A stretch of 56,134 bases of DNA from Mesaphorura yosii (lineage: Eukaryota; Arthropoda; Collembola; Poduromorpha; Tullbergiidae). A program made the position numbers and the translations under genes. Under the pieces are notes generated by a model. That model did not search any database, was not told where the DNA came from, and saw only the letters and a list, made by a program, of their open reading frames with translations. The DNA lies in assembly GCA_009869945.1 (NCBI GenBank), contig WIXG01000439.1, positions 1 to 56,134 of the forward strand, given 5' to 3'. Positions within the stretch are counted from its first letter, which is position 1. Each line of letters opens with the position of its first letter. Shown here in pieces: positions 1 to 50,781 of this stretch.

Positions 1-3000
1 GACAACGGAGCTTGCTGGAAACGAAGAAGAAAAGATGCGATGTTTTTTGAAGTGGAAGTGTGGAATTTGCCAAGCTCCGGAAAATGCTCAATTCTCATCT
101 CATTTTGGTTTCCCACTGCATGTCATCTCATCTCACACTTCACAGATTTCCGCAGCATTGTTGCTTATCTTCGCAATATCTCAAGAACTAGAACGCGAAT
201 TGTACGGGGTTAGATGCGTCGAGTAGAAGTGTGGCCTGAGTTGGAGCTCGAGAGATATTAGATGTAACAAGATAAAAATAAACCTATTGATATCTTGCCT
301 GTATTATAACGCGTATTTATTTCAACACTATGGCGTATAAAGAGTCCCTGGCCGCATGGCTGTGGAATTGGTAACTCGTGGAGTTGAATTAGATATGGAT
401 GGGTTGTTAAGAAGTAGCGAGTGTTTGAAGTCAACTAAATATCTCGGTCCAAACGCAAAAGATCTTGACTGTTTGCTCGAATTTTATCGCCGAAAATGTA
501 AACAAACTTGATCTTCGAAGCGAGGCTGAAAGTAACGCGCGTTCGAAATTCTAATGTGAAGCAGGAATCAAGCGAGTTCACTTTTGGCAAGATTACATTT
601 GCATGTTGTACACTCAGCTCAAGGAATTACGTGGTTTGATTTTCTGACTAGGTGTTGTGCATAATGTACGAAGAAATAGGGCAACGTGAAATATTTTTGT
701 CTTTTGATTCCAGACCTTTCGCACAAATCATAGAGCTGTCAAGTTGGACTAATATTTGCATAGAACCAAAGCAATTGACCTTTTACGTTGACAAAGACAA
801 AGTATAGGCAAGAGTCTCGCCGAAAATGGGGTAAACCTCATAGTAGAAAAGGTCAGAACGTGCAGAATGGATGAATAATATTTTAGCAGTACGTAAACAG
901 TAAAACAAGGCAGTACGGATTGCGTGCCGCGTGCGCCATCGACAAAAATTCAATTTAGAAATTTCATATTGACTACTTCCTTGCACTACTGCATTGCAAA
1001 ACAGGAAGCAGGCTGGTCCTTGTTAATATTTAAGCACGATCTGTTCTACACGACCATTGACGCAGACGCGTTCTGCCTTTGCTTGTGGCTAAATTTTTAA
1101 TATGTCGTACACTACTTGACTGCTAGGAACGAGACTATTAGTTTGCCAGACTAAAGGTAGATTCTGTGCGTTGCGTTGCGCCATAAGTTGTCTCCATTGT
1201 TAGCCACAAAACCTGAATTGTGAAAATGAATGTTGAGAGAATTAATCAGGCCCAATGTCGATCAATATCGTGCAGGTGTGTGGACTGGAAATGCGTTTAC
1301 GAATTGTTGGAATCGAGCTGTGTCGATCCAGTCAGAACTCTTCGGGTCTTAACATAAAACAAAAGGAACAAAATTCGAGGCAAGACGTCTCGACTTGGTT
1401 GCAGAACTGCTAGTACAAAACCACTTTAGTTAATGAAGTTAACTTGGTCATAAAGTTCATTGAAGCAGAGTGCAGAAATTTATGAACCTTTTATGTAATT
1501 GCAGAGTCCCCCACTAACATAGTTACGAGTCACAATAAATTCACTAATTACGAAAAAACAGCAAATTGCGTGTTGTTCCCTTCGCGCTTTTGGTTTCGTG
1601 GAATTGCATTGTTACCACTTTGCTGATGCCACTTGAGATTTCCTTACTTTTATATCGGAGGCATTGAGCTCAAGCTGAAGTTAGCACACATCCTGCTGGA
1701 GAGTTTGGAGCGCGCCAGGTCGAACCAAAACCAAGCCACTTCAATAATATTTCGCTCGTCTCTTTTCTGATGTACTTCTCATTATTCTCGAAATTCTCGT
1801 GCAGTAATTTCAGCAGTCAGTCTTCGGACGAGCAGTCTCGTAGTTTGAGTACTTGCACCTCAATAAATGTTGCTTCTCCTTCATGCGGTTCGTTCCGTGG
1901 ACCTTAACACGTGAATAGCTTACAATTCCTGCACGAACGCGAGTTTTATAAATTGTAATGATGATGCAGGTTTAACCCAAGTTGTGGAGATTTCGCTGTC
2001 AGTGGTTCTCCTCCGTAATTTCCAATATCAATAAATTGGAAATTCTCAGGGCAATACGACTTGATGGGCGAGTGCTTTCACCATGAATCTTTCATTGTAT
2101 GCACAACTACGTGTGGAAATTGAAATACGTGCATTGGAAACCATTTGGGAGATAAAAGGCAATCGTTCCAAACTCATTCTGAGACTTGACGTAAGGCTGA
2201 GTTGTTACACCATGCAGTAAAGCAAAAAACGAGCGCTCAACCCTGAGCTCACTGCAAATTGTTTGTGAAAACATTGCAGGCCATTCCTGTTAACGTTAAC
2301 CATCATTCCATTGCCGTATCATTGCAGTACGTTATTACTTTACCATTTCTCCAGAGACAAATTTACTCCAAGACGAGTACGTGCAAGTGAATACGGGCAC
2401 ATTTGTATTTGGAAGTCTTTTCTTATTTTTATTTGATTTGATTTACTTCCAGTTGCATGGCTTGAGAATTCTTATACATACACAACGTGCGCGTGTCCTC
2501 CTCTGTCCTGGTGCACTGGCATTTATGTAAAATGGATTTATCTACAAACTGTCCGAGCCCTATCCGTCCTTTGTCATGTCTAGTGTGTCAGGTAATAGAA
2601 AAGTCGTCCATGTGAACTCACACTAACAAAAAAGCACATTTGGCTCAAGTTTCATTGCTTCATTCCTTGAAGTCTCATTAAAATTTTATTCAGCAGTTGG
2701 TTGACTGCTTTATTTCGTCGCTCTGCTGCTGCAGGTTGCAACTTTCCCATCGCTTGAGCACTCGTATTCGCATTCACAATTTAAACAGCCAAGTTTATGG
2801 ACCATTATTTGTTTTGTAACTCTTTGAGTCGTGCGCTGCTCTTTTGCCGCACCAGAGATTGGTTCAGTTTGTAGATTAAGAAAGTAAAGTAAAACAAAAA
2901 GAAAATACTAATACCTTCTAACCGTTCAACCGTGCAGCTAATTCAATATTGCGTCCTCTGAGAGCCGGCCGAAACTCGGAGGCGCTACTGCGATCATGAA

Positions 3001-4642
3001 CGCTACTGGTCTAACTGGTGTTCTTAAGCGGGTATTAATATTTATTGTTTGGTTTGGCTTTGGGGCAAACTTTACGATGAGCACGCGAACGAGGAGCTTA
3101 GCGAAGGATTAAATTCGCTACCCGCACGAAACTTTAATATCTGTCAACTTTTCTGGCTGCTTTCTTAGCCTGGCCACGGCTAGGTACTGTATACCACCGT
3201 GGCTAGCACGATTAAAATGTGGAATCGATTGTCTGCATCCGTCTTGGTCATTAGAGAATTCAGTTGCTTTCTTTCTTCCAATAAGTTGGAAATGAATGAG
3301 ACTTTGACCGATTTTGTAAGTGGAAGACAGAAAACTTCTCCTCAAATTCCTCTCGCTTGACAGAGTAAAAGTAAACTCGACATTTGGCTATTTCATTAAC
3401 AATTCCAAAGTAGAAGAGTTGAAGTGGGGACAAACTTTCTTTATCTCGCTTCCGAAGAGTCGACTCTCGAGTATCTCATGACACGATTTTAAAACAATTC
3501 CAACTTTTCTTCTCTAGATTTCCGTTGGTGTACGTGCGATTCTGAAGAAGTGAAAGAAGGTTTGGTTTACTTTGAACTTCGACTCAAACTCGGAAAAACT
3601 TCCTTCCTGTTTTTGCAATCTGGATCGATAAAGAAATGAAAGAGTAACTTGCTTTGTCCCGTCTTCTTCTTGGAAAGCTGAAAAATATTAAAGATGGAAT
3701 TAATAATTGAAGATGAAGTCTGAAGTCAGGGTGAAACATAAAAGCAGGCACACGCTGTTCAAAGTCAGGTTGACTTTAATATTCCATCACGGTGAGAACT
3801 TATTAGAACAGCCCGAATATTATGAGCATTCCTGTGTGCTACTGCGGTTAAACGTCTGTCGCTTTCGTTTCATGTCAATCCTGAATCTGCTAGTTTTGTG
3901 CACTGGGAGAATGTGCCGCTTTCAAACCAACATTGCTTCAAATGTCAGTCCCAATCCAATCCGGCATAATTTGCGTGGAGAAAGTGTGTATCAGAAAGCG
4001 AAAGAGCGCCACCCTTTCGTCATTCTGATACATGCATAAAATGAGATTTAAATATTTACGTACTACAACAAAGATAACAGCTTGGTGCCTGCAATTTATG
4101 TTAACTTATTTTCCAAGGACGAACCATCAATTATATCAAGCCCAGACTCGGAGGCTAGCTAAAGTGTGGTATTTTGTGTCGAATTCAGGTCATGATCACT
4201 TCGCAGAACTCTGAATTCTTAAAATAATTTTCAGGAGAAAACTTCAAACTCGTCATAATTAGTAGATACCGAACTCAATTAAAGAAAGATCCTTCTCCTC
4301 TGAGTTTTAGAGCCAACAGTTTGGCTGCTTCATAAATGAGTTTCAAGTAAAATTCTTGAGAATTTTGAAACAATTATCGCGAAGCTTCAATCTGAATTTT
4401 GTGGCGCATTGCAATTCTCAGAATCGGATTCAGATGAGCGTGGGACGAGTATTTGAGCCTAATTACGAGGCGTATCTAAATAGGAAAGAAATGGAAACGG
4501 GGTTGAATTGCTCAGCCTGTAGCAACTGTCGCTCTTGCCGAGTCACTCCTAATCTAACTCGAATAAATTTAAACTTTCTACTCCGTCCGATAGGTTAAAC
4601 CTTCCATTTTACGCTCCCTTTTGTACTATTGTTGTGTCTTAG
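1..4642. other. No recognised gene; upstream or 5' intronic sequence of the SK gene
   Basis: I see no coding region here with recognisable similarity. The open frames are short and lack splice-site or family support. A splice acceptor (polypyrimidine-like stretch ending in AG at 4641-4642) lies directly before the first SK ATG. Part of this stretch is therefore probably an intron or 5' untranslated sequence of the SK gene, but no upstream exon could be identified. Confidence 0.5.
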
Positions 4643-7600
4643 ATGAGTGCGGCTGCTTCCAACCCGGTACTTTCGGGCTCCACTGAGAATCTGCTGCAGC
4701 CTGCTGGAGACGAAACTAAGCCAACAATTATTCCACTCCCTGCGAGCAGAGGGGTCACTTCAAGTGCAGGAGTGGCAGCAGTCAAGCCCACACCAGGATA
4801 CAGTTCAACAACATATCTTTTCACAGAGTCTGAACCATTTACCAGTGCCAGTGCCACTAACAAGCCTAGTACGTCTGTCGTGGCCATATCCAACGCTGCG
4901 GCTGCGGCTGAAGCTGCTCAACAGCAGTCTAATCGGAACAGAATCCCATTAGCTTTGTGCTCGCAACAGACAGCCTTATCAACGCCAGGCGCTTCACTTT
5001 CGGTCGACGAAGCACCAATCATGATATCAACTGACGAAGACACGGATCAAACCACGTCATTAATCTTGCCAGTTGCTGGTGGGCAGAACTTAACCGCGAC
5101 GACAAGCCAAATTATCAGTTCAAACAGCAGAATCGATCCGCTGATAAACGCAGAGTCAACAAGAAGTGTTCCAGAACTTGAGCTTCACTCCAGGACGAGA
5201 ACAGTCGCTGTGGGTATTGCGGCCGGTGGAAGTACGGACAAGTACTCGATACATTCGGAGAAAGCCAGCTCGAGCGTACCTTCACACGATGGACTGATGT
5301 GCCGTCACAGGTTTGAGCCATTAATTTTGCACTCTGTAATTAAAGCGTTTCATGATAATAATAATTAAGCAAATAAATGTAATCTGAGAACTGAAAATTT
5401 CATATCAAACCTTCAAAATAATTGTCCGTTGCGGTACACATTTTTAGATACTTGGTTCCGCATGGACATCACCGTCATCATGTGCACTGTTCCCGATGCA
5501 ATCCAATCAGCCATCATCATCCACAGTGTCTACCGTTGTCGAGGCACGCGTCTCGCGATAGTGTCAGATCAATCCACATAAGTGAAAGCACTCCGAACAA
5601 TGCGCTTGTACCCACAACGTTCCAATCAATTGGTGGACCGGGAGGACCGTGCACAAGCTCGACCGCAATTCGTCGCCAGCACTCTCAACCAGAAAGCCAT
5701 TGCCTGTATTGTCAAACGCACAGGTAACAATTCATATAATGTTGCAGCCATATCATAACTATTGTAACACACGTCGACGCGTCTTTGTTATTATTATTGT
5801 TGTTATTGCGACCTTTACAGTTCATTGCGGCAGCTGAAAGATCAAAATGACGGAATAGCGGGCATTGCAGCAGATTCACTGCGCATAAACGGTGCAATAC
5901 GGCAGTTTAAACAGGTAATAAAGAGCATTCTATTGGGACTAAACGTGTATTTTCGTCCAACCATTTATTCATTTGTTTGTGACGGTGGTAGTCTATGTTA
6001 TAGTTGTGTAGTCCTTCTGTTCATTGCGTGTGAATTTAATAAGCCGTACTCGTCAATCTTTAAGTATTTTCGTTTCTTAGATTAGATTCTTGATTTGGAA
6101 GCGTAAATTGCATACAGAGCTCGAAATTTAACAAAGAATAACTATTCACATACTTCAACTAGTATCAGTAGACAAATCCCACTCGCTGAGAGCCGGACTC
6201 ACACTCCCCGCCATCTAAACAGCTCAGAGCCAAACTTCTCGTACTGGTGAAAGTACAGAAAGAAACCGCACAACAAAATGTGGCAGGCTCTCACGCTTTC
6301 CCAAATTCGTAGCTTTCTCTCGTAAGACTCAGGAAGTGAGCAATATAATCTTTCCCCATGCCCACTTCTGCTTTTCTTATATCTCAAATGACATTAGCGT
6401 TAATTAAATTTGGAAAGATTGTTCCAACAATACGCACTTGTTTTCTGAAGTACACAGAATTGCTCATATCAGCAAAGATCAAAGACAGAAACCAAACGCA
6501 ATACTAATAATGATCTGAGAACGAGACTTTTACCATAAAAGTAAAAAATATGCAATTTAAAGGAAATTCAGTTTTTCGTAGCGAAACTCATCAACTTTTT
6601 GTTGTGTTGTTCATTTTTGTCCCAGTTTCTGTCTCGAGTCTTGTTCTTGTTTTGATCTCTCGGTCTCATTTTATTGTTGTTTGTCTTTCGGTTTATTTCC
6701 CGTCTTTTGAACATTTGTTTTTTATCCTGTAGCATACGTTGCTTCTTAACCCTTTAACTCTGGCCCAAAATCGACGTGCCCGCTTTCGTCGCGCCTATAC
6801 AACTGAAGCCACTGGAGAAAATGACTTTTCCCGTGCTACCAATTTTACTTCTCATGTGGCAAAAACGGTTCGACTTTTTCTTTATTGTTCCTCAAGTCTA
6901 ATATTCTACTTTAACTTTCTCACATAATGTTAATCGTAATCACAATAGAACATAGAAGTCTTTTAGTCTTTCATCATTCGCATCCGGTTCCTTTGTAATT
7001 CCCCTGCAAGCAGATTCTCAAATAGTCCGTCTACTAGAGCATGTGCCACCGCTTCATAGCACATGCCAATCTCCAAGTGCCCTTTAAACTTTTAGCACTC
7101 TATCTTTGAAAAGACTCCCTCCGCCATTTTTCTACACTGTCAACTTATCGTTGTTCGCTTCCTACTTGCAAAATCCTTCGTTGTTGTCTATGATACCGTC
7201 GTTTCCACTTTAAAGATCAAAGCACAAAGGCAACTTCTTGACAGCCGGCTCTTGAAATTGCACTTCTCGCTGTATCGATAAAATAAAAAATAATCAAGCA
7301 CCCCGACGCATGTCATTCCGCCAGCACAGCAAGGCACACACACGGCACACTTGCTTATATTCGTTATGTCTCGTTGCTTTCTTTGTTGCCTGCCTGATAC
7401 TCTTTTACAACCCAGCAGCAGTCATTCCAACTTCGAAAGAGAAGCCGTCAAGTGTTTGACTTGCTTTTGAGCAGTGAAATTTCTGTGGCCGCATGGTGCG
7501 CACTTCAACTAAAAATAAATGAGTTCCTCTACAATTACGATCTATGAGCCAGTGTCTCTAAAGGGGATTATTTCCACCGACGGTAATCAATTTTTCAATT

Positions 7601-10600
7601 TAGCCTGTCAAGAACACCCATACTTTATGACTGGACTCTGTTGCCTTTGGAGTCTAGAAAGATTCTTTCCACTGTACGGAATTTATGCTGGTAATGGCTA
7701 CAATGATGGCTAAATTCCTTTTCTTTCGAGTGGAGCTGTAGCAGAAAGGAATTTGGACACTTATTTCATTCTGCATCTAGTCTATTGTTGTAAAGGATGT
7801 TCAGTCTTGAGTTGAGCAAATTCCTAACTTGTTAGGTGTATACGTCAGACTGTCAGACGGCTCACGGCTTGCCTGTGACTTATCAAAATGACAAAGGGCT
7901 TGTGTTTGAAGAATTGCAAAAGGAGGAACTTATTTTCCAACAAATTGAAGCGTGATGCATTGGAATTGTGTCCAGTAATTGAAATGGTGTGGATTCTAGG
8001 CTCTCTCGCGAATCAGTGTCCATTCACTGACCACCAGACAAAGAGGCAGATTGGCAAGATTTTGTGTTTGGATCGCATTACGCCGCCAGTAAACCAGACA
8101 TAAATATCCGTTTGCCATTCTGGCCAGACAACGAGCATTAACTGAGCAATAAATTTTGAGACAGAAAACAAAATCAGGCACGGGGGCAGAAACGCAGAGG
8201 CTGCATATCCAAAATCTAACAAGCCATAAAAATTCGGATTCCTATTTACTAGGGACAGAAGAATTATTAGTGTCGATTCAGAATCGAGTGCTAGCCGAAA
8301 TACGGACCTATGGCTCTTAACCTTACAGTGCCCGTGTCTCGTCTCGTTTCCCAGAGTTGGTGCTCCGAGCTCCAATCTATAAATCGTTAGAGAGCCGCGA
8401 AACGATTGCTTTTGCTTCGCTTGCTGTTATTTATTATGCAATGGCCCTGACAAAACACCAGCAACGGGCCCATTCTGTCCTTTCCTAGACGACTCATGTG
8501 TAAAGTGTGTCCGACATGATTGCATTTCGCCTTTCGGATTTCGCGAATGACATAGAAAAACAAAGGCAACACAAAAAATATTAATAAAGTATCCCCAGCG
8601 AGAATTCAACTGTACACTTAAAACTAATACTACAAGTACAAGGCAATGAGCAGGCGAACGAGTCAAGCTGAAGGAAACCCAACTAATACTCGTGTAATGA
8701 GAAAACACCCGGGTACACACATGCGATGTAGGTCTGTAGGCATTTTATTTTTTGGCAAGCTCACAAAACACTTTTTTCAGTAAATAAAACCTATGCGAGA
8801 GAAAAATTATATTGTTTCATAAAAAATTATATCACTGCTCTTTCTCCGCTGCGCTAGTACACGACAAAATGTGCGAAGCACGGACTAGCATCAGAGTATG
8901 CAGTGTCTCACAAGGAGATGACGCGAGGTGCGTATCAAGTTTCGGCTCGCCACCTATACATCACGTAGGGCATGGTTAAAAATGGTTGTGGTGGAACTTT
9001 TAGAACTGAGAAATGGATATTCGATCTTTAACGCGAGACTGAAGTTTTCGTTACAATGCATTTACTGCTTCTCTTAAAACAATGCGAAAAAGAAACAGAA
9101 TAAACCATTAATGTACAAACAAACGTGCACTTTATACCTCACTGTCTCATCATTAAATACTAATTCCGATTAATAATTTTATATTCAGAGGTCAAAACTG
9201 AGTGGTAAGAAATGCTTCCTCGCAGAAGTATTTCTTTTCCACGTTAATTTGTTTGTGCATTAATGTTTTGGTTTGTTTACTTTTCGCATTATTTTATGAT
9301 AGGCATAAATGTATGGTAACGAAAACTTCAATCTCGCGTTAAAGATCGAATATCCATTTCTCAGTTCGAAAAATTTCACCACAACCATTTTTCACCATGC
9401 CCTACATGATGTATAGGTGGCGAGCCGAAACTCGATACGCACCTCGCGTCATCTCCTTGTCAGACCTAAGGCTGGCTCTGGCCGTGCCAGACAACTCGTA
9501 AGTATGCACTGTATGTTACGGTAGTAAAATAATATGAGAAAAGAAGATGTGCCGTGCCATGAGACAGCTGAAATAAAGCAAAGGAAGCGCTTGCGTCCGT
9601 CCGTCGATTTTTGCTTTTGCCTTGCTTTCGCAACGATAGCCTTGTGTTTGCTCGTGAAAAATAGCAACTAGCATACCTCAGCAGAAAAAATATACGCCAC
9701 GCAAAGACTACGCTGGAACGAGAAAAGACTCAGATGGGAGAGCCCGAAAACTGCCGTGCTCTGCTTGCGTGCATAAAGTACGTACGTACAGTGCCGAAAC
9801 TTGGTTCCAAAACCTATACATCTAAAAGATTGAGGCTTGATTCCTCGGGTTTTCTCTATTGTACATTTTAATACTTGCTGTCTACCTCAGACAGAGCAAA
9901 GATAGGACACGGACACACAGCACAGCGCAGACCGTTCCGTGAAGTATATTTATCTAGGGCCGCAGCCTAAATAGTGAAATAGAGCTGCTTGCAGTGCAGC
10001 AGGAAGGCTCAGGGCAATGTAGAAGATCTATTCTGCTTTTACTTATTCAAAATTATTGCACAGCATTACTCATCATCATTGTAAGAAAGGAAGTCTTCAT
10101 GACAAAAATTTAACAATGGTGATTGATGTCAGTGAAAGTTTGCAAGTGAGATCATGGAAAGTAGTTTCAAGCTAAATTGAGTCATAATGAAGTAATGAAC
10201 GGTTTGCAATTAATTCGCCCAGGCCACGGTTTGGAGTGGCAAGCTAGTTAGTGGTTAGTTGTTCAACTCTCTGGAAATTCAAATATGCCCGTATTTCTAC
10301 TTTGTGAAAGTGCAGCAGAGTTATAACAGAGTAAAAGTTGCTGGCCAATTACCTGCCCGCGCACTCATGGCACTGGTACCTTACTTTCTACTTGTCGTTT
10401 ACTGAGAATGCAATTTTGTGTGATCGTGTCCCGTGCTGGTGTGTCTTTCATCTCTTGGTCTTGAGAAATTTCATTGATTACCAAAGCGATGTCATGATAC
10501 GCGTGTTATCGTGTTCTTACATCTGATTATTGCATCATTATAAGTATTAGTAATACTTATCGTGAAAGACATCTATTTATTGCCCACCTCTTCTCTGCTC

Positions 10601-41800: not shown

Positions 41801-43768
41801 AAGCTTCTCACAACACACTTAAGTGTGTTACATGAAAGCATGCGCTGAATCGTGCCTAATCATCAGCAAAAGGATTCTGTACTACTACTAATTACATAAA
41901 TTACGTCTTTATGATTGTAAGTAGCTCATTTGGAGACGTGTGTTCGACATGCGAGAGTGTATAGCTGGTGAAGTGGAATGTATTGGACTTTGACCCAGAG
42001 CATCAAAGTGCATCGTATCCGCGTGTCGTCGAATCTGCTAATTGCTGCTGTCAAACATCATGTATCTGTGCAGGATTACAATGCACTACAAAAATCAAAA
42101 CACAAAGTGCGCAACACAATTGCGTGGATGTGTGTATTTGAGCTGTGATTCCTGAGCTGGCTCAAGCGTACGCTCGCTGGATTAATTTAGGAATTGGACA
42201 CGCTCGTTGGAAAGAAGTCCCTTTATAGTCCTTGATTACGCCGCAGATCTTCATTTGGGCAACTCAAACATGATGTTAATCTACGCCTCGTAGAGGTACA
42301 GAGCATTAAGAAAGAATTTAGTTCAATTAATGCGCAATTCGTATTGTTGCACATACCGCATTCAAGTCTTATCACAAGTAAAGATATTTGTTTGCAGTAC
42401 GTAAACAAGACGTGTGGGATTGTGAATTAATCAAAACCTGAAACTTACCACACTTTAATTCACATTTGCCTTGCCGCAGTTTTTGCCTGTCAAGAGGAGC
42501 AGGATTTGAAATGAAAATCTCATTTTTCGTGGACGCCAGCGACGGCGATTGTTGCTGAAATTCTGTACACACTCACAGTCACAAACGAAAACACATCTGA
42601 AATCTCCAATCAAGAACTTATTCCAACCTTATTCCTTGAACTCGAAATTGTTTTAAGCTCAATTGAAATAGGCACTCAGCTCCCTGCTCGTTCGTTGTCG
42701 AAGATGACATTTCACAGGTAACCCACAGCATGACATGCAGACTTTACAGGCATAGACATGACTTTAAATATCAGTTATAACTTTTCGCTGTCGTCGTATT
42801 TGGCATGTCCGACATAGTGGCCATATGAGAGCCACTGCCAGGAGCCGTAATAGAGCATATGCGCTGAATAGTGTATTGTGAATGTCAAAAGGCAAATCGA
42901 ATTTCTAGAAAAATATTGGGAAACGTTTTAGACCCGACGCACGTGTAAATTCACCGTCTTTCGTCGTAAGGAACTATTTCGACTGCATGTGCTACAATTT
43001 ACGACACTTATTTACCGGACAATAAAATTCGCATTGCGCAAGGGAGTCCATGAATAAAGAATGTTAATTATCGAGTGGATGGAAACCTTAACCCCAAAAC
43101 TCGAGCAAGCCTTCTCAGTGAAAGCGTGTTGTGGTGGTCAATTGATTGCTTTCCCAGGGTTTTATACTATTCTCTTTCATTAAAAATGGGCGTTCACCAA
43201 TAGAAGTCCATTATCAATGCATGCCGTTTTTTTTACCTGGTTTAGACTTCAAGAACACGCAAATGGAAACGATTGGCTTGGAGCGCTACCACTCGGTGCA
43301 ATGCGTGACTATAGCGTCTATCATCTATCATTCAATTGATTCAGATTCCGTTCACCTGTGTACCAATTAATTCGTGGGCACCATTTTAATTAACTACCAT
43401 CCTGGGAACTCGCTGTTGCAGATTGATTGGAAAGATAGCCTTTGGCTACATTGAAGAAGCGTCTGTTTTCGTAACCTCACTTTGGACTATGAACCAGTGC
43501 TGCTTTGTAATTCAAATGCAGATAGCAAAGTCTACAAACGTTGTATGCGGATGTTTATAATAATTAGAATGGATTTTAATAACGAAGAAACTGAAACTGG
43601 CTCTAACCTAGATGCCCAGAGAATTGATTCCTGTGAAGAGAGCCTAGCTTTGTGTTTTCAAACTGAAATCAGCAGTGCCAACATGCAATGACAGTGCTGT
43701 ACAGACTAACAAGAACATGATAACGTATTCTCAATTCACATTAATCCGTTTGCGGTTACTCTATTTAG
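38810..43768. other. Gene desert of about 5 kb between carbonic anhydrase and murF
   Basis: No recognised coding region, RNA gene or strong repeat. It contains the carbonic anhydrase promoter and whatever lies upstream of murF. Open frames of 60-80 codons on both strands look like chance. Confidence 0.5.
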
Positions 43769-43775
43769 TATAAAA
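43769..43775 (+). promoter_or_regulatory. TATA box upstream of murF
   Basis: TATAAAA 51 bp before the first ATG of the murF frame. A start about 25-30 nt downstream would leave a leader of roughly 20-30 nt. This looks like a eukaryotic core promoter; I saw no convincing Shine-Dalgarno motif before the ATG. Confidence 0.5.
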
Positions 43776-43826
43776 GTGGCTTCGCATCTGCTCGCTTCTA
43801 AATCCAAACTACGTCGAGTTATTGAA

Positions 43827-45359
43827 ATGCCTACGCTTACTAGTTCAGGTGATGAACCCTGCAAACCTCAGTGGGGAAGTCAACAAATTTTGGAATTGAC
43901 AAACGGCCATGCAATAGTTGCTCTTGGAAATTGGGTTGCAACCAGAGCCATGGTTTACTCCTTCAAAGTGAAGCCAGGAGATTTGTTCGTTCTTCTCTTT
44001 CATCACAAGACTCGTTGGGATTTTGTGCAAGAAGCATTCAAGCGCGGAGCGGTTGGGGCCTTGCTGACACGTCCATCGAATTACCAAAACGTGATTGCAG
44101 CTTTGTCGAAAATCGAGCTCAGTAAATGTATTTTCGTCGAAAACAGTCACGCAGCACTGACGGAACTTGGGAAGCACGCGTCCCAGTCGAATTCGTCTTG
44201 CTTGAAGATCGCCATCACAGGCAGTGTGGGCAAAACGAGTACGAAGGAAGGACTGGCTCAGATTTTATCCGAAATCACCCGCAGACAAAACAAGACCGTT
44301 TACTACAATTATCTGAACGAGAACAACGAACTCGGTGTTGGTATATCTCTTGTCTCAATGCCGAAGACCGGATCGGTCGACTACGGAATTTTTGAACTGG
44401 GAATGTCAAATCTAGGCGAAATACGAATGCTTGTGAATATGGTGCGGCCATCAATTGTGATTATCACAAATATTGGCGAATCTCATTTGGAAGCATTTCG
44501 CTGCACAGAGGAAATTGCTGACGCGAAATGTGAAATATTTGAGACCAATTTGGATTCTGACGGCAAGTTGAGAAACATCGTCGCTGTGCTGAATCGGGAC
44601 AACAAACATTACGCACGCATCCTAAATCATGCAACGAAAAACAAAATCACTCAAATTGTAACATTCGGGGAACATTCAGACTCCACTATCCAGTTGCTCC
44701 GTTGCAAAATGGACTCGCAGGGCACCAAAGTCACCATCAAGTACCGTGGTCAATTGTATGATTACCGCGTGGGACAACCAGGCAAAGGTTGGGTTTGGAA
44801 CTCAATGGCCATACTTGCAGCAGTAAGTTGTCTTTGTCCAGACAAAATTCAAGAAGCTGTTCAAGAGTTCAAGCACTTGAAGAGTGTAACTGGAAGAGGA
44901 ACCACTTACACGGTGCAAGTACCCTGTGCTGCCTCCGCGCAAATTACAGTCATCGACGATAGTTACAACGCAAGCCCAACATCGATGCAGTTCGGCCTGG
45001 AAAGGATTGGTCTCATGAATCCTCCCGGCTCAGGGAGGAAAATCGCTGTATTGGGGGACATGGTTGGACTCGGCTCACAAAATGAAGCTCAGTATCATCT
45101 AAGCCTGAAACCAATCTTGGAATCAAATCAAATTGACTTGGTATTTGTCTGTGGGCAGCTAATGAACCGATTGTATGAAACTTTGGACAAGAGATTGCAA
45201 GCTGGAAACGCTGCCAAAGATTCTACAGAACTGATTCCGAAACTGATGGATGCCATTCAGCATGGAGACATAATCTATATTAAGGGATCGCGACGCATGC
45301 GGATGGATTTAATTGTAAAGGCATTTGTGAGCGAATTAAGTTCAGGCGAGCCGCACTGA
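43827..45359 (+). CDS. murF: MurF-type UDP-MurNAc-tripeptide:D-Ala-D-Ala ligase, bacterial origin
   Basis: In bacteria MurF uses ATP to join D-Ala-D-Ala to UDP-MurNAc-tripeptide, the last cytoplasmic step of the peptidoglycan precursor. One intronless frame gives 510 aa from the first ATG (typical MurF about 450-480). Visible motifs: P-loop TGSVGKTS (131-138), ENNELGVG (165-172), SHLEAF (219-224), IADAKCEIF with the Lys that is carbamylated in Mur ligases (K234), DDSYNASPTS (377-386), LGDMVGLG (409-416) and KGSRRMRMD (486-494). All three Mur-ligase domains are present and no stop interrupts them. MVRPSIVIIT and VLNRDN resemble alphaproteobacterial MurF by eye. The neighbours are spliced animal genes and base composition matches the window, so I infer an old, functional horizontal transfer. 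The frame extends 17 codons upstream to a GTG, but that is unlikely to be used in a eukaryote. Confidence 0.95.
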   Translation: MPTLTSSGDEPCKPQWGSQQILELTNGHAIVALGNWVATRAMVYSFKVKPGDLFVLLFHHKTRWDFVQEAFKRGAVGALLTRPSNYQNVIAALSKIELSKCIFVENSHAALTELGKHASQSNSSCLKIAITGSVGKTSTKEGLAQILSEITRRQNKTVYYNYLNENNELGVGISLVSMPKTGSVDYGIFELGMSNLGEIRMLVNMVRPSIVIITNIGESHLEAFRCTEEIADAKCEIFETNLDSDGKLRNIVAVLNRDNKHYARILNHATKNKITQIVTFGEHSDSTIQLLRCKMDSQGTKVTIKYRGQLYDYRVGQPGKGWVWNSMAILAAVSCLCPDKIQEAVQEFKHLKSVTGRGTTYTVQVPCAASAQITVIDDSYNASPTSMQFGLERIGLMNPPGSGRKIAVLGDMVGLGSQNEAQYHLSLKPILESNQIDLVFVCGQLMNRLYETLDKRLQAGNAAKDSTELIPKLMDAIQHGDIIYIKGSRRMRMDLIVKAFVSELSSGEPH

Positions 45360-45913
45360 CCAGTCGCAATTGTGGACCTTATTACGAATTGATTAATTAA
45401 CAAACAAGGAAGACTGTTTTGGTTTTGAGCATTCCACGTAGCACATTTGCACTGCGAATTAAACTTGAGAAGAATTTTTTAAAACTTGAACCTCACACAG
45501 AGGGTCACACACTGTTGTTGACATTTGCGATTCGCAGTAATTAATACAGAACGCAGAACGCCAGTACCCGCACGGCCACACGTAATAAGAAACAGGTTTT
45601 GAATTCATTCTTCTCTTGCTTGCATCGCAGCGGCTGCAAATGGGACTGGTGGCAATTTAAATCTGTCTCGTATACAGTTCGTGCGCGTTAAACAGTGGAA
45701 GCGGAATTGTTATGTCATAATCGTTATCTTTATAATGGGAACTTTAACGCTGATATTGATTTGATGGTCAATATCTTATGAGATTATAAGATAACATAAA
45801 TTCGCCAGCTTGCTATTGTGCAACGTATATTCTATTCTGAAGCGTGGATTCTCTTTGCATAAATGCGGTCATCTGTAAGTGCCATATTATCAGGAACTGC
45901 TCCTGAGCAAAGT
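45360..45913. other. Intergenic between murF and TRAPPC9
   Basis: About 550 bp holding the murF 3' end and the TRAPPC9 promoter and 5' leader. I found no canonical AATAAA soon after murF and no coding sequence. Confidence 0.6.
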
Positions 45914-48900
45914 ATGTCGTACCCGGACTATCAGCAGACGCCCAACGATCACCAGTCCATCTTGGTAGTGGTTCGACATGTTGGTAAGTGTTTCTTAGCT
46001 CTTTCTAAAGATAGGAGGTGAAAATGATCGAACGTTTCCTATATTTAGGGCGTCAACTTCGAACCAAACAATTCACCCGTGCATTCGATCGAATATCACA
46101 TGTGCAACACATCAAAATTGTGGATTCGCAAAACACGGCCTTGTCACGCACAATTTGGATACGATATTTACGCAGCTATCCAGTGGAGAACAATGATTGG
46201 GGAGATTTTCAAACTCATCGGAAGGTTCTTGGACTTATCTCCATTGGGCAATGCAACTCCCAGGAAGAGCTTAACGAGCTTTGTAGGATACACGAGTCAT
46301 TGAAAGTGAAGTATGCGTGGACTCTGTTCGACTCAAGATGTATTTTATTCGGGTTGAATCCGGATGGCAGTATTTATGAAGGCCAGCATTCATCGGATGT
46401 CAGTCCGGTTGTGGACATCAGCCTTCTTGACTCGTTGACAGCCGGTTCATCGCCTCCCCAGTCGATTGAAACTGGGACATCTGGATCAGCTCGGCCTAAA
46501 CCCTCCAGAAGTGTAGATTCGTTCAAGAATCTCGGACCATCATTATCGTCATCAATGTCAGCCTCAATGGACGAAACAATCTCTGAGGAAGGTCCGCCAA
46601 CCGAGGAAGAGGAGGAAAGGCCAATCACCTCTACCATAAAGGACGAGTACGGCAGTCAGTACAGCGACGCAACGGGTCCACCCAGCAGCGGAGACGATGA
46701 CGACTCCAGCAGTACCAGGTCCGAATCTGTGACCGGAACACTTCACTACTCAAGTCTGCCCACTGACCCTCACCCAGGAGATACAACAAAGAGAATAAAC
46801 CCTGAGACAGGCAGCTGCTATTCGGCTTCAAGTGCGTCGAGTGGATCGAAGTCGTTAATAACGCCATCAAATTTCAAAGCAACACCTTTGTTTTATCCAA
46901 CAATGGAACTGAGCCAAAGTTTGGAACATGACATAGAGGAATTTGTTTCCGCATTGTTTTGGGTTCTGGAATCTAAGCGACTGGATAAAGCCGGGTTAGT
47001 TACAGTACTTATTTTAACTCTTCGTCATTTGATTTTGATAAACTTGCTTCCTAACTCAGGCTGAGGAAGGCTGATCGGTCGTTACTACTGTCCACCTTAT
47101 GTGCACCATTCGAGAAGAAGGATTTCGTCGGACTGGACTTGGAATCAAAAAATAATAAGCGTCGTGCTGAAGGAAGACTTAAAAAGCAGTTGGGAGACTT
47201 GAGCTTGCAGGCTGGACTAGCTAATGAAGCGATTCTTCACTATAATGGGGCAATTGAAATTTTGAAATCCGTCAATGACTGGTTGTGGTTGGCTGGCGCC
47301 TTGGAAGGGATTTGTTCAGCATCGGTCTGCATAATGTATCCCCAGCTTCGAAATGCTCCGACCATGCACAGAAACTCTTCATTGCAGCCAGCAGACTTCA
47401 AAATGATCAAGCCAAATTCAGGTTCGCTCCCATCTGGATTGGATCCGAGCGAATTACTTGGAATTACTGACTCGGTGTCGGCTGCCGTGAAATTAAATCC
47501 TAACAAAAACTACTGTTTAAGTCCATTGGAGCTGCTCGAGAAATATCGGGAAGCGGTGACGCATTATGGAAAGTACAGACAGGCGGGTATTATTGAGACG
47601 GAGGCTTCAATTAAAGCCGCTCTAGTGCTAATTGAACAAAAGCAAATCCTGCACGCAGCCGATTTTTTGCAAAATGCAGTGTTCATCAGTTTACAATTAA
47701 CGGAAGAAGAAAAGGTAATCCCATATCTAAAGTATCTATTCCTTTGCACAGGGCAAAAGGAAATAACTAGCATTTTATTTGGTTTATTAATAGATGCAAA
47801 GATTTAATGCTCTCTCCGATTTGTACACTCGTCTTGGATTCAACCGAAAGGCAGCTTTTTTCAAACGAGTCGCAGCTATGAGATGCGTGTCCCCAAGTAA
47901 TCCGCAGCCAAACTGGACTTTGTGTCATTCGCTCCTGCTGCAAGTAATGAATGGATACAATCTATCGTTAAACGCCAACGAGCCATACAAGTTTGGGTAT
48001 TACGGATGGCCACGACTTCAGATCCAGATAATGCAGGAATTAGTTGGCACTGCGAAGAGGAAAGGCAACAGTGCGTTGGCCACAAGGCACATGACCTTGT
48101 TGCTTGGAACTATGCTACCTCACGTGAGTGCAGAATTTGTAAAGTTCTTAATTCATTCAGAACTACAAACAAACTATCGATGTGTTGAAATAATTGAGTT
48201 TGGCATCCGAGTTTAGCTGTCCCGTGATGAGAAGAAAGAATTCGCACTCCAACTTGAGCTCATTACTAAAGAATCCGAAGGATTGCCTGTTCCACTCGTG
48301 CTTGAGAACGGTCTGATTATTCCACCGGTGCATCTACTTAATGTACCTGTCATGAAGTAAGTCGGCATTTTCTTTTAATAGTAATAATCTCGTATAGCAG
48401 CTTCAGCTTTATCTTATCTCGTTTTTGTTTAAGATTGTTTCGACTTGTGCCACCTACACCACATTTGCGAGCTGAAAAGAAGCCGGACGAACAAGCTTCA
48501 TTGTCCAAAGAACCGAACCCCTTTTTCTATTCGTTTCTTCCGTTAACCAACCGCGACAAAATTAATGCAGCAAAAGACAACACGAAGGCCGAATTTTGTT
48601 GGGTAGAAGGCGAAATGTGTGAAGTGAATATTTTACTGGAGAACCCCCTTCCAATTGAGCTGAAGCTAAATTCTATGGTAAGACATCGAGCTTTCTCATT
48701 TGTGAGTGAATTGTTAAGAGTCTTAACATAAGATGCAATACAATAATATTCTTTTTGACACAGAGCTTGATCACCGAAGGAGTGAATTTTCAGATCAACT
48801 CTAATGTAATATCCATCCCAGCGGACTCAACAAAATTCCCTGTGACGCTGACTGGAATCCCATTGGTGCCTGGCAATCTCCGCATATTGGGTTACTCAAC

Positions 48901-50781
48901 CTACACTCTCGGTGTCAAATCAAACATCCGACTCAAGAATTGCCAGCCAGTTGTGTCCTATCCGCATGTTGATGTTGAGATTGTTCCAGGCCTGCCCTCA
49001 CTCGAGATAGAAACTAGCAAACCGAAATCAGAATTCTTCAGTTCGTTTTCAGACTCCATTATCACATCGGCTAGCATCTCACTTCTTATGGGAGAGACGC
49101 AAGAATGTACAATCACGCTAACAAACACCGGCAAAGTTCCAGTTGAGTCAATTGAACTCAATCTGGAATCGAGGATCGAGAAGTACACAAACGATATATT
49201 CAGCTGGTCGCAATCCAATTTGTTGTCGCAACTCCCAATCGCGCCTGGTGCCTCAGCTTCATTTACTGTTTATGTGCATGGAGTTGGTGATTTCATCGGG
49301 CCACGGAGTTCAGAGTATTCTGCGGGTGCTGGTAACACCGTCAGTATTAACAGCATCCCAGCTGGAAACGTGCCTGCTGCCTCAGAAGGGCCCAGCTCAC
49401 TACCAAGCAGACTTGGAGCTATCAGTGAAAGACTGAGGCCAAAGAGAAACGAGTCTTCCGCTTCCAACAGGTTAAACACGTACTTCATCTTTTTGCTAAA
49501 GGCACCTAATTGGTGACATTGATGTTTATACTACAGGTCGTCGAGTGTTCGAAGTGGTGGTGGCAGTAGCTTGAATTCTTTTTCAATGGCAACGCCACAA
49601 CCACCTTCCTTGTTATCTAGTACGAAAGCCTACGAAGCTGTCTTGAAGTTGAAGTATTCCGGTGGTCCTGGATTCAAGAGTGGGCACTTCCGGAGCTGCG
49701 GTATCGCATTGAATGTAGAAGTATCTCCTACATTGTACATTACAAAGTGGGACACATTGCCTGGCGAATCGTAAGTAAACTAAAACCAAATTGCGTCACG
49801 GTGGAATGTATGGTAGGAAGCGATTTTAATCTCGACCCGTGATAACAGGCCTTCGCAATTCTACCTTGTTCTCGACATTTGTAATGCAACCCAACAAGAA
49901 ATGGAACTTCAGTATACAAAATCGAAGCAAATCCTTATTGAAAAGTTGGAAACATGTCGAATTCCAGTTCCCATTGAACGATGTCCTTTACCTAGTACTG
50001 ACAAAGGTAATTACAGTAATTAGCACACAAGCTTCATTTCTTTGCATATGCGAAATGAACAAAGAAGGAATAAATTGATCGTACTCTGTCTCTTTCTAGG
50101 ACATGAAGATGTGGCAAATGAACACATTGTAAATAATGTGGACCTGAAATGGAGCTTGCCGGACGCATCTGGAAAAGCTATTTTGGACGGGATCCGGTTA
50201 ACTCAGTCTATGGTACAACACGTAATCGTTTCTCCAATCCAGTGGGGTAAATGTGCAGATTTTCAGCATAACCTATCTGCCGTTACTGATACTTACTTGT
50301 TGACTTGTATATGTAGAAATTACTGTTAACGGTGAATCAGTAAAAACCGAGGAACTTCGTTTCGATGCTGGGGAAATGATCAATATTGGAATTTGGCTGA
50401 AAAACCATATGAGGGATGAGCTCGATGATATTCTTTTATCATTGGACTGCTTCCAGGATTATCAAAATGGTAAATTCAATTATCGACTGGATTCGCGGTT
50501 TGCAGTAATCGGAAATGATGCGGTCAAAATTCCAAAGGTAAGAGATCACATTGAATGAGAAGTCAAATGGGGTACACAGTCAGCAAATCATCGTTTCTTT
50601 TCAGATTCTTCCTGGAAACACTTTTCAACACTCGCTGTCCATCATCTTTTTCGTTTCCGGATATTACAAGATCGACTTTAAGTGCAATTCCAAAGAAGTA
50701 GGAGAGCCTGGAAGCATAAGCGATTCATTGGAACAACTAGTTTGGAAATACAATCCGCCACTGGATATTCAAATTCATTAA
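45914..50781 (+). CDS. TRAPPC9: TRAPPC9 / Trs120-like TRAPP II subunit
   Basis: Subunit of the TRAPP II tethering and Rab-GEF complex acting at the Golgi and recycling compartments; also called NIBP. Twelve exons (45914-45983, 46049-46994, 47060-47714, 47794-48123, 48217-48356, 48434-48677, 48764-49470, 49537-49770, 49849-50006, 50100-50246, 50317-50537, 50605-50781) give 1342 aa with all phases matching. The N-terminus (MSYPDYQQTPNDHQSILVVV, NNDWGDFQTHRKVLGLISIG, LFDSRCILFGL) and the middle (LCAPFEKKDFVGLDLESK, GFNRKAAFFKRVAAMRCV) are plainly TRAPPC9. It ends in Ig-like beta domains (LKYSGGPG). A Ser/Thr and acidic-rich insert of about 150 residues near residues 143-300 interrupts the N-terminal region. 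Confidence 0.96.

Follow-up and report, generated by a model that had tools for sequence, protein, structure and literature searches.

A bacterial-type murA-F and ddl gene set in the genome assembly of the springtail Mesaphorura yosii

The genome assembly of the springtail Mesaphorura yosii (93.0 Mb, 1127 contigs) encodes relatives of all seven enzymes of the soluble arm of bacterial peptidoglycan precursor synthesis, MurA to MurF and Ddl. The murF gene lies in the window, the 56,134-nucleotide stretch analysed here, which is one entire contig. The original prediction had called for a search of the same genome for murA-E and ddl, and profile searches of the contigs located all of them on five other contigs, so that the seven genes are spread over six contigs, 56 to 970 kb in length. 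Horizontal transfer of the set is near certain; the use to which it is put is inferred. The best explanation, to which we give about an even chance, is an old transfer, probably alphaproteobacterial, of genes retained because they provide an unseen intracellular bacterium with wall precursor. If true, animals can take over the soluble bacterial-wall pathway more than once, the described animal case that we found being the mealybug (PMC5664097, available text). The full springtail set would then predict a host-dependent, so far unseen symbiont that receives its wall precursor from the springtail, and host control over proto-organelles would become testable in a small-genome soil animal.

The murF gene and its surroundings in the window

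As originally described, murF is a single intron-free frame of 510 sense codons, running from the ATG at 43827 to the end of the stop codon at 45359; in 300 base shuffles of window positions 43000-46000 the longest stop-free frame was 168 codons. The gene and its surroundings comprise the following features.

43769..43776, plus strand: TATAAAAG, possible animal-type core promoter, 58 bp 5' of the murF ATG (consensus match only)
43827..45359, plus strand: MurF-like coding sequence, 510 amino acids plus stop, single exon (open reading frame, Pfam, NCBIfam, alignment)
43956..44018, plus strand: N-domain stretch, codons 44-64, with D30, R32, D49 and H51 (E. coli numbering) replaced (73 bacterial rows)
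44217..44237, plus strand: P-loop TGSVGKT of the ATPase domain, codons 131-137, kept (sequence, alignment)
45458..45463, plus strand: ATTAAA, possible poly(A) signal, 99 bp 3' of the murF stop (consensus match only)
45914..49513, plus strand: springtail TRAPPC9 (brunelleschi), exon 1 from 45914 and more exons to about 49513 (homology, tree)

The TATA pattern of the first feature occurs across the window at a density of 0.032 per 100 bp. A TATA word within 300 bp is absent at all six other mur-pathway genes, and no poly(A) word was found within 400 bp of murB.

The TRAPPC9 ATG (45914) lies 554 bp downstream of the murF stop and a GT donor follows its first exon. The TRAPPC9 exons find their best matches in Orchesella cincta (58%, covering 72% of the query) and Allacma fusca (49%, covering 95%), and a 14-row tree joins the host sequence with these two in one clade with support 100/100. 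The contig that murF has in common with this springtail gene supports its location in an animal genome. Upstream, the nearest Pfam match among the ten window open reading frames (ORFs) tested is a carbonic anhydrase exon ending at about 32.9 kb, some 10.9 kb from murF, with a WH1 exon next beyond it.

The MurF protein matches Mur_ligase_M (E 3.5e-39) and Mur_ligase_C (E 1.2e-13) in Pfam and the NCBIfam murF model (E 2.8e-82), its top NCBIfam models being PRK14093 (best, 322.4 bits) and TIGR01143, with 70.8 bits for the MurE model TIGR01085. Its best solved-structure match (E 6.7e-35) is presumably E. coli MurF, judging by the entry code. Both curated cut-offs are missed (TIGR01143, 276.9 versus 288.6; PRK14093, 322.4 versus 544), and the Pfam search found no N-terminal Mur domain PF01225 at E 0.001. 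Y44, F46, T62 and W64 replace D30, R32, D49 and H51, which are near-invariant in 73 bacterial rows and which we take to hold the UDP part of the UDP-MurNAc substrate; together with A42, these account for five of the nine near-invariant MurF positions lost. The ATPase centre is intact, with the P-loop TGSxGKT (T131-T137) and the carbamoylated-lysine site K234. The protein thus resembles the PRK14093 form of bacterial MurF in its ATP-binding loop, its Mg-binding lysine and its central and C-terminal domains, but differs from it in the near-invariant N-domain residues and in scoring below both cut-offs. The earlier statement that every key Mur-ligase motif is present therefore holds for the six motifs it listed, all found in the translation, but does not extend to the N-terminal domain. 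Because TIGR01143 is missed, the N-domain residues are replaced and PF01225 was not found, we regard the protein as a MurF by descent, with a putative MurF function. This altered MurF is the main fact opposing a plain copy of the bacterial pathway.

Among the 120 best of 7908 matches in a search of 5.8 billion proteins, the top identity to MurF was about 39-40%, and the few, shortened organism names (Kilo-, Alph-, Prot-, Pseu-, Pelagibiu-) included no animal. Near-complete identity to one bacterium, which had been named as a sign of contamination, did not appear. Since no listed relative exceeds about 40% identity and the codons are host-like (see below), contamination of murF is very unlikely.

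The six other genes and their host context

A Mur-ligase profile search of the assembly gave four places, namely murF, MurE (contig C1, 553 amino acids), MurD (C331, 511 amino acids counted from the first in-frame ATG) and MurC (C49, in two parts around a 74-bp stretch); MurA lies on C87, and Ddl and MurB both lie on C2, about 86 kb apart. Each of the six enzymes other than MurF exceeds one or more of the curated NCBIfam cut-offs for its own type: MurA TIGR01072 (422.4 versus 392.7), MurB TIGR00179 (172.9 versus 144.5), spliced MurC TIGR01082 (382.1 versus 335.1), MurD TIGR01087 (305 versus 211.95), MurE TIGR01085 (351.9 versus 257.3) and Ddl NF002378 (261.4 versus 243). Ddl falls below TIGR01205 (212 versus 245.65), and MurE below the DAP-type equivalog NF001124 (414.7 versus 476) and also below NF001126. 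The 74-bp stretch in murC reads as a GT-AG intron (GTATTG...TTTTCAG) within the ATP-binding loop, and its predicted excision restores GTHGKT.

The motifs of the individual enzymes are largely in place. MurE keeps the DNPR motif (D459-R462), whose Arg marks the meso-DAP-type enzyme. In Lys-type MurE the position of this Arg is taken by Asn (PMC6736417, available text). Also kept, in MurD, MurE and MurF, is the lysine whose bacterial counterpart is carbamoylated; the role of this residue in Mur ligases has been described (PMC3060825, available text). In MurB, Cys287 stands at a position that is Ser in at least 97% of 49 bacterial rows. We take this serine to be catalytic in E. coli MurB. Aligned with solved MurA, the springtail MurA contains the GGC, ENRF and DLR motifs, whose roles we take from general knowledge. 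An N-terminal hydrophobic stretch of MurB (locus L015, 718-860) resembles, and may be, a membrane anchor, and Ddl carries an extra acidic N-terminal stretch.

Thirty ORFs of the assembly were tested against Pfam, of which 16 had no match; the 14 matched ones include two shikimate ORFs (C146), one PRiA4_ORF3 near murD and one weak DUF3824. By Pfam, murE has an MBT-repeat gene at a distance of about 3 kb, murC a Ufd2 core at about 2 kb, ddl Med25 at about 2 kb and PP2C at about 6 kb, and murD NADPH-oxidase-type, BTB and desaturase exons at 10-40 kb, while the murA contig holds a wax-ester-synthase-type gene and, farther away, a trypsin. The two ORFs beside murB gave no Pfam match, and murB is tied to host genes only via those about 80-90 kb away on C2. 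The PRiA4_ORF3-type gene (locus L021, 2895-3260) lies about 6 kb from murD and belongs to a family that is presumably of mobile-element type.

Codon use was correlated with that of host exons and of bacterial dcw genes; the first host pool held the two shikimate ORFs, which are perhaps transferred themselves, and the comparison was therefore redone without them. The host and bacterial correlations, respectively, were 0.71 and 0.03 for MurF, 0.56 and -0.24 for MurE, 0.58 and -0.16 for MurD, and 0.43 and -0.12 for MurA; they were mixed for MurC (0.46 and 0.32) and MurB (0.40 and 0.33). Ddl gave 0.18 and 0.65, and 0.44 when compared with two host exons from the contig on which it lies; its GC3 is 0.71 versus 0.55-0.66 for the C2 ORFs (Med25, PP2C and one without Pfam match). 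Local composition may explain part of this result, which counts against a uniform host signature. Contamination or a contig chimera would agree with a window that is one whole 56-kb contig, with Ddl codons nearer the bacterial set and with the two unmatched ORFs beside murB. We nevertheless hold such an artefact to be extremely improbable, given seven genes on six sizeable contigs, the murC intron, host-like codons in MurF, MurE, MurD and MurA, an identity of at most 49% to any relative among the matches listed, and five other bacterial wall-gene families of which none was found in the assembly.

Outside this set, a second ATP-grasp place above the PF07478 cut-off (C551) scored far below the Ddl cut-offs and was left out, and the same search of the assembly gave three weaker places. 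This ATP-grasp ORF (locus L007, C551:18806-22414, 1144-3022) has weak Ddl similarity and overlaps an ORF that by eye is methyltransferase-like; the local GC is about 0.5, and the ORF is possibly another transferred gene.

Origin and conservation of the gene set

The reference set is biased, since it consists of 80 loci fetched by MurF alignment, mostly alphaproteobacteria by title, and one E. coli region. On this biased set, the six genes compared (MurB-F and Ddl) lean to Alphaproteobacteria, with E. coli ranking 76th of 76 for MurF, 77th of 77 for MurE, 71st of 72 for MurD, 67th of 68 for MurC and 42nd of 44 for Ddl, the MurB comparison set being one without an E. coli row. MurA was compared with plasmid records and solved structures only, and among the 25 of 140 plasmid records listed alphaproteobacteria reached 274 bits, Legionella 262, Firmicutes 248-252 and E. 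coli 237. Trees built on chosen subsets of rows (the Ddl of locus L052, with a branch of 10, was kept in the Ddl tree) place springtail MurF, MurD, MurC, Ddl and MurB on long branches without a firm bacterial sister. Profiles, identities and ranks thus support the proposed alphaproteobacterium-like donor, whereas the trees do not give its finer placement.

MurE has one closer relative, a metagenome protein of 484 amino acids on a 2256-bp JGI contig (P0241), which scored 381 bits versus 303 for the next match and is the sister of springtail MurE with support 100/99, on branches of 1.2 (P0241) and 2.06 (springtail). At three columns of 90% or more uniformity the two proteins deviate in the same way; two of these shared residues occur in none of the 187 other rows and one in 9 of the 187. 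The start of P0241 is unlike a bacterial MurE N-terminus, perhaps owing to an upstream intron, and the protein may belong to another soil animal or to a relative of the donor. No springtail name occurs among the 120 best listed rows for MurF or MurE, and the trait may therefore be confined to few springtails. In the comparison with solved structures, springtail MurE is closer to bacterial MurE (4e-56) than to MurE-like chains that we take to be of plants (3e-42 to 1e-24); no plant is among the named rows of the MurE protein search, in which most of the matches listed are nameless.

At an identity of 34-49% to the best bacterial rows, the six enzymes other than MurA keep 324 of 373 near-invariant residues, that is 34/43 in MurF, 62/70 in MurE, 57/61 in MurD, 81/97 in MurC, 48/54 in MurB and 42/48 in Ddl. 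A residue was taken as near-invariant when found in at least 97% of 36 to 73 bacterial rows and matching E. coli where an E. coli row was present. The counts drew on 72 of 77 bacterial loci for MurF, 67 of 77 for MurE, 63 of 71 for MurD, 62 of 67 for MurC, 49 of 60 for MurB and 35 of 44 for Ddl, with the E. coli row added for each enzyme except MurB. Rows outside length limits, rows of 120 bits or less and the misassigned locus L047 (branch 10) were left out of these alignments and of that for the residues shared by MurE and P0241. All seven frames are stop-free over 367-559 codons. This retention of residues at such low identity supports the view that the genes were kept under selection for long. 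Once-useful genes that are now drifting, MurF furthest gone, would account for the long springtail branches of MurF, MurD, MurC, MurE, Ddl and MurB, for the N-domain losses of MurF and for the loss of 16 of 97 near-invariant MurC residues; against the seven open frames and the residues kept, we rate such decay as improbable.

Steps not found and possible use of the pathway

Profile searches of the assembly found no PF00905 transpeptidase, no bacterial MraY, no Asp/Glu racemase (MurI), no alanine racemase (Alr) C-domain and no DAP epimerase (DapF). These searches were positive in 8 to 12 of 14 control genomes; since each exon is read separately, a host racemase with many introns could escape them. 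Of the D-amino-acid genes that had also been proposed as a check, Alr and MurI were looked for and not found. The failure to find these five wall-gene families suggests that no ordinary walled bacterium was co-assembled, and no symbiont sequence was encountered in the assembly. With MraY, transpeptidase, the Ala and Glu racemases and DAP epimerase not found, the UDP-linked precursor looks like the endpoint of the pathway, whose D-amino acids would have to come from bacteria. The only MraY candidate consisted of three PF00953 places, all on contig C226, and the stretch compared matched a dolichyl-phosphate GlcNAc-phosphotransferase structure far more strongly (8.9e-24) than MraY (0.089), for which reason we read it as host DPAGT1.

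In the scenario that we favour, the springtail lineage would long ago have gained murA-F and ddl from an alphaproteobacterium, or from several bacteria, after which the genes dispersed over the nuclear genome, most acquired host-like codons, murC gained a spliceosomal intron and purifying selection acted. Following the known bacterial order, MurA and MurB would convert UDP-GlcNAc to UDP-MurNAc, to which MurC would add L-Ala, MurD D-Glu and MurE meso-DAP; Ddl would join two D-Ala into the dipeptide that MurF attaches. The product would be a UDP-MurNAc peptide, requiring D-Glu, D-Ala and DAP. As Alr, MurI, DapF, MraY and PF00905 were not found in the assembly, the D-amino acids and DAP would most simply be bacterial, and the lipid and polymer steps would take place inside a bacterium. 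The host would then feed wall growth in an intracellular symbiont whose own mur genes are gone, and could control that wall in this way. The gene set, its location, the intron, the conserved residues and the steps not found are observations; expression, enzyme activity and the symbiont we infer, and a function in a symbiont wall is plausible.

Supply or control of a symbiont wall is the reading that we rank as most likely. Next, and rather unlikely, comes the possibility that the springtail makes UDP-muramyl peptides for itself, with retuned MurF and MurB and no dependent symbiont, be it for tuning of peptidoglycan sensing, as a defence compound or for reuse of gut-bacterial muropeptides and D-amino acids. 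The replaced N-domain residues of MurF next to a kept ATPase centre, the change from Ser to Cys in MurB and the lack of a symbiont MraY, transpeptidase, MurI, Alr or DapF in the assembly would all suit such a use, as would the beta-lactam pathway present in some springtails (PMC8138834, available text). It fits less well with enzymes for all seven soluble steps being present, with the DNPR motif kept in MurE and with the nested symbionts of the animal parallel (PMC5664097, available text).

This closest parallel to the proposed supply of a symbiont is the mealybug, whose nuclear genome carries murA-F and ddlB of bacterial origin, the same seven enzymes (PMC5664097, available text). The springtail likewise has murA-F and ddl in its nuclear genome, with the N-domain reservation for MurF. 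The mealybug belongs to a different hexapod class. According to the same text, it feeds on sap, harbours nested symbionts and has its genes as a group from several bacterial sources, whereas six of the springtail genes lean alphaproteobacterial on a biased set; the mealybug further possesses mltB, amiD, lysA and dapF, of which dapF was sought here and not found. Moss and plant plastid peptidoglycan genes (MurE/PAP11 and others), as far as the available sources describe them, are also eukaryotic nuclear genes of the same pathway, but serve a plastid. In our tentative estimate, somewhat short of even, a second, independent animal lineage, Collembola, took over the whole soluble arm, perhaps from one alphaproteobacterial source, with D-amino acids and DAP coming from an undescribed organelle-like symbiont, or, more boldly, with a new animal muropeptide arising via a MurF for which the UDP-linked acceptor is no longer a substrate.

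Springtails do take up many microbial genes, as illustrated by the 809 horizontally acquired genes reported for Folsomia candida (PMC5490193, available text). The abstract of that genome report stresses lignocellulose breakdown and antibiotic genes, and its main text, as available, is without the words 'peptidoglycan' and 'mur'; in open-licence texts we found no report of mur genes in springtails.

Two further observations concern the assembly as a whole. No COX1 match above the cut-off was found in it, and the mitochondrial genome therefore seems absent. Contig C146 (locus L033, C146:155500-165400) carries a near-complete shikimate pathway resembling a split AROM protein, a pathway that to our knowledge is normally absent from animals, with dehydroquinate synthase and type I dehydroquinase on one strand and EPSP synthase, shikimate kinase and shikimate dehydrogenase on the other (1773-3743, minus strand; 4433-8159, plus strand).
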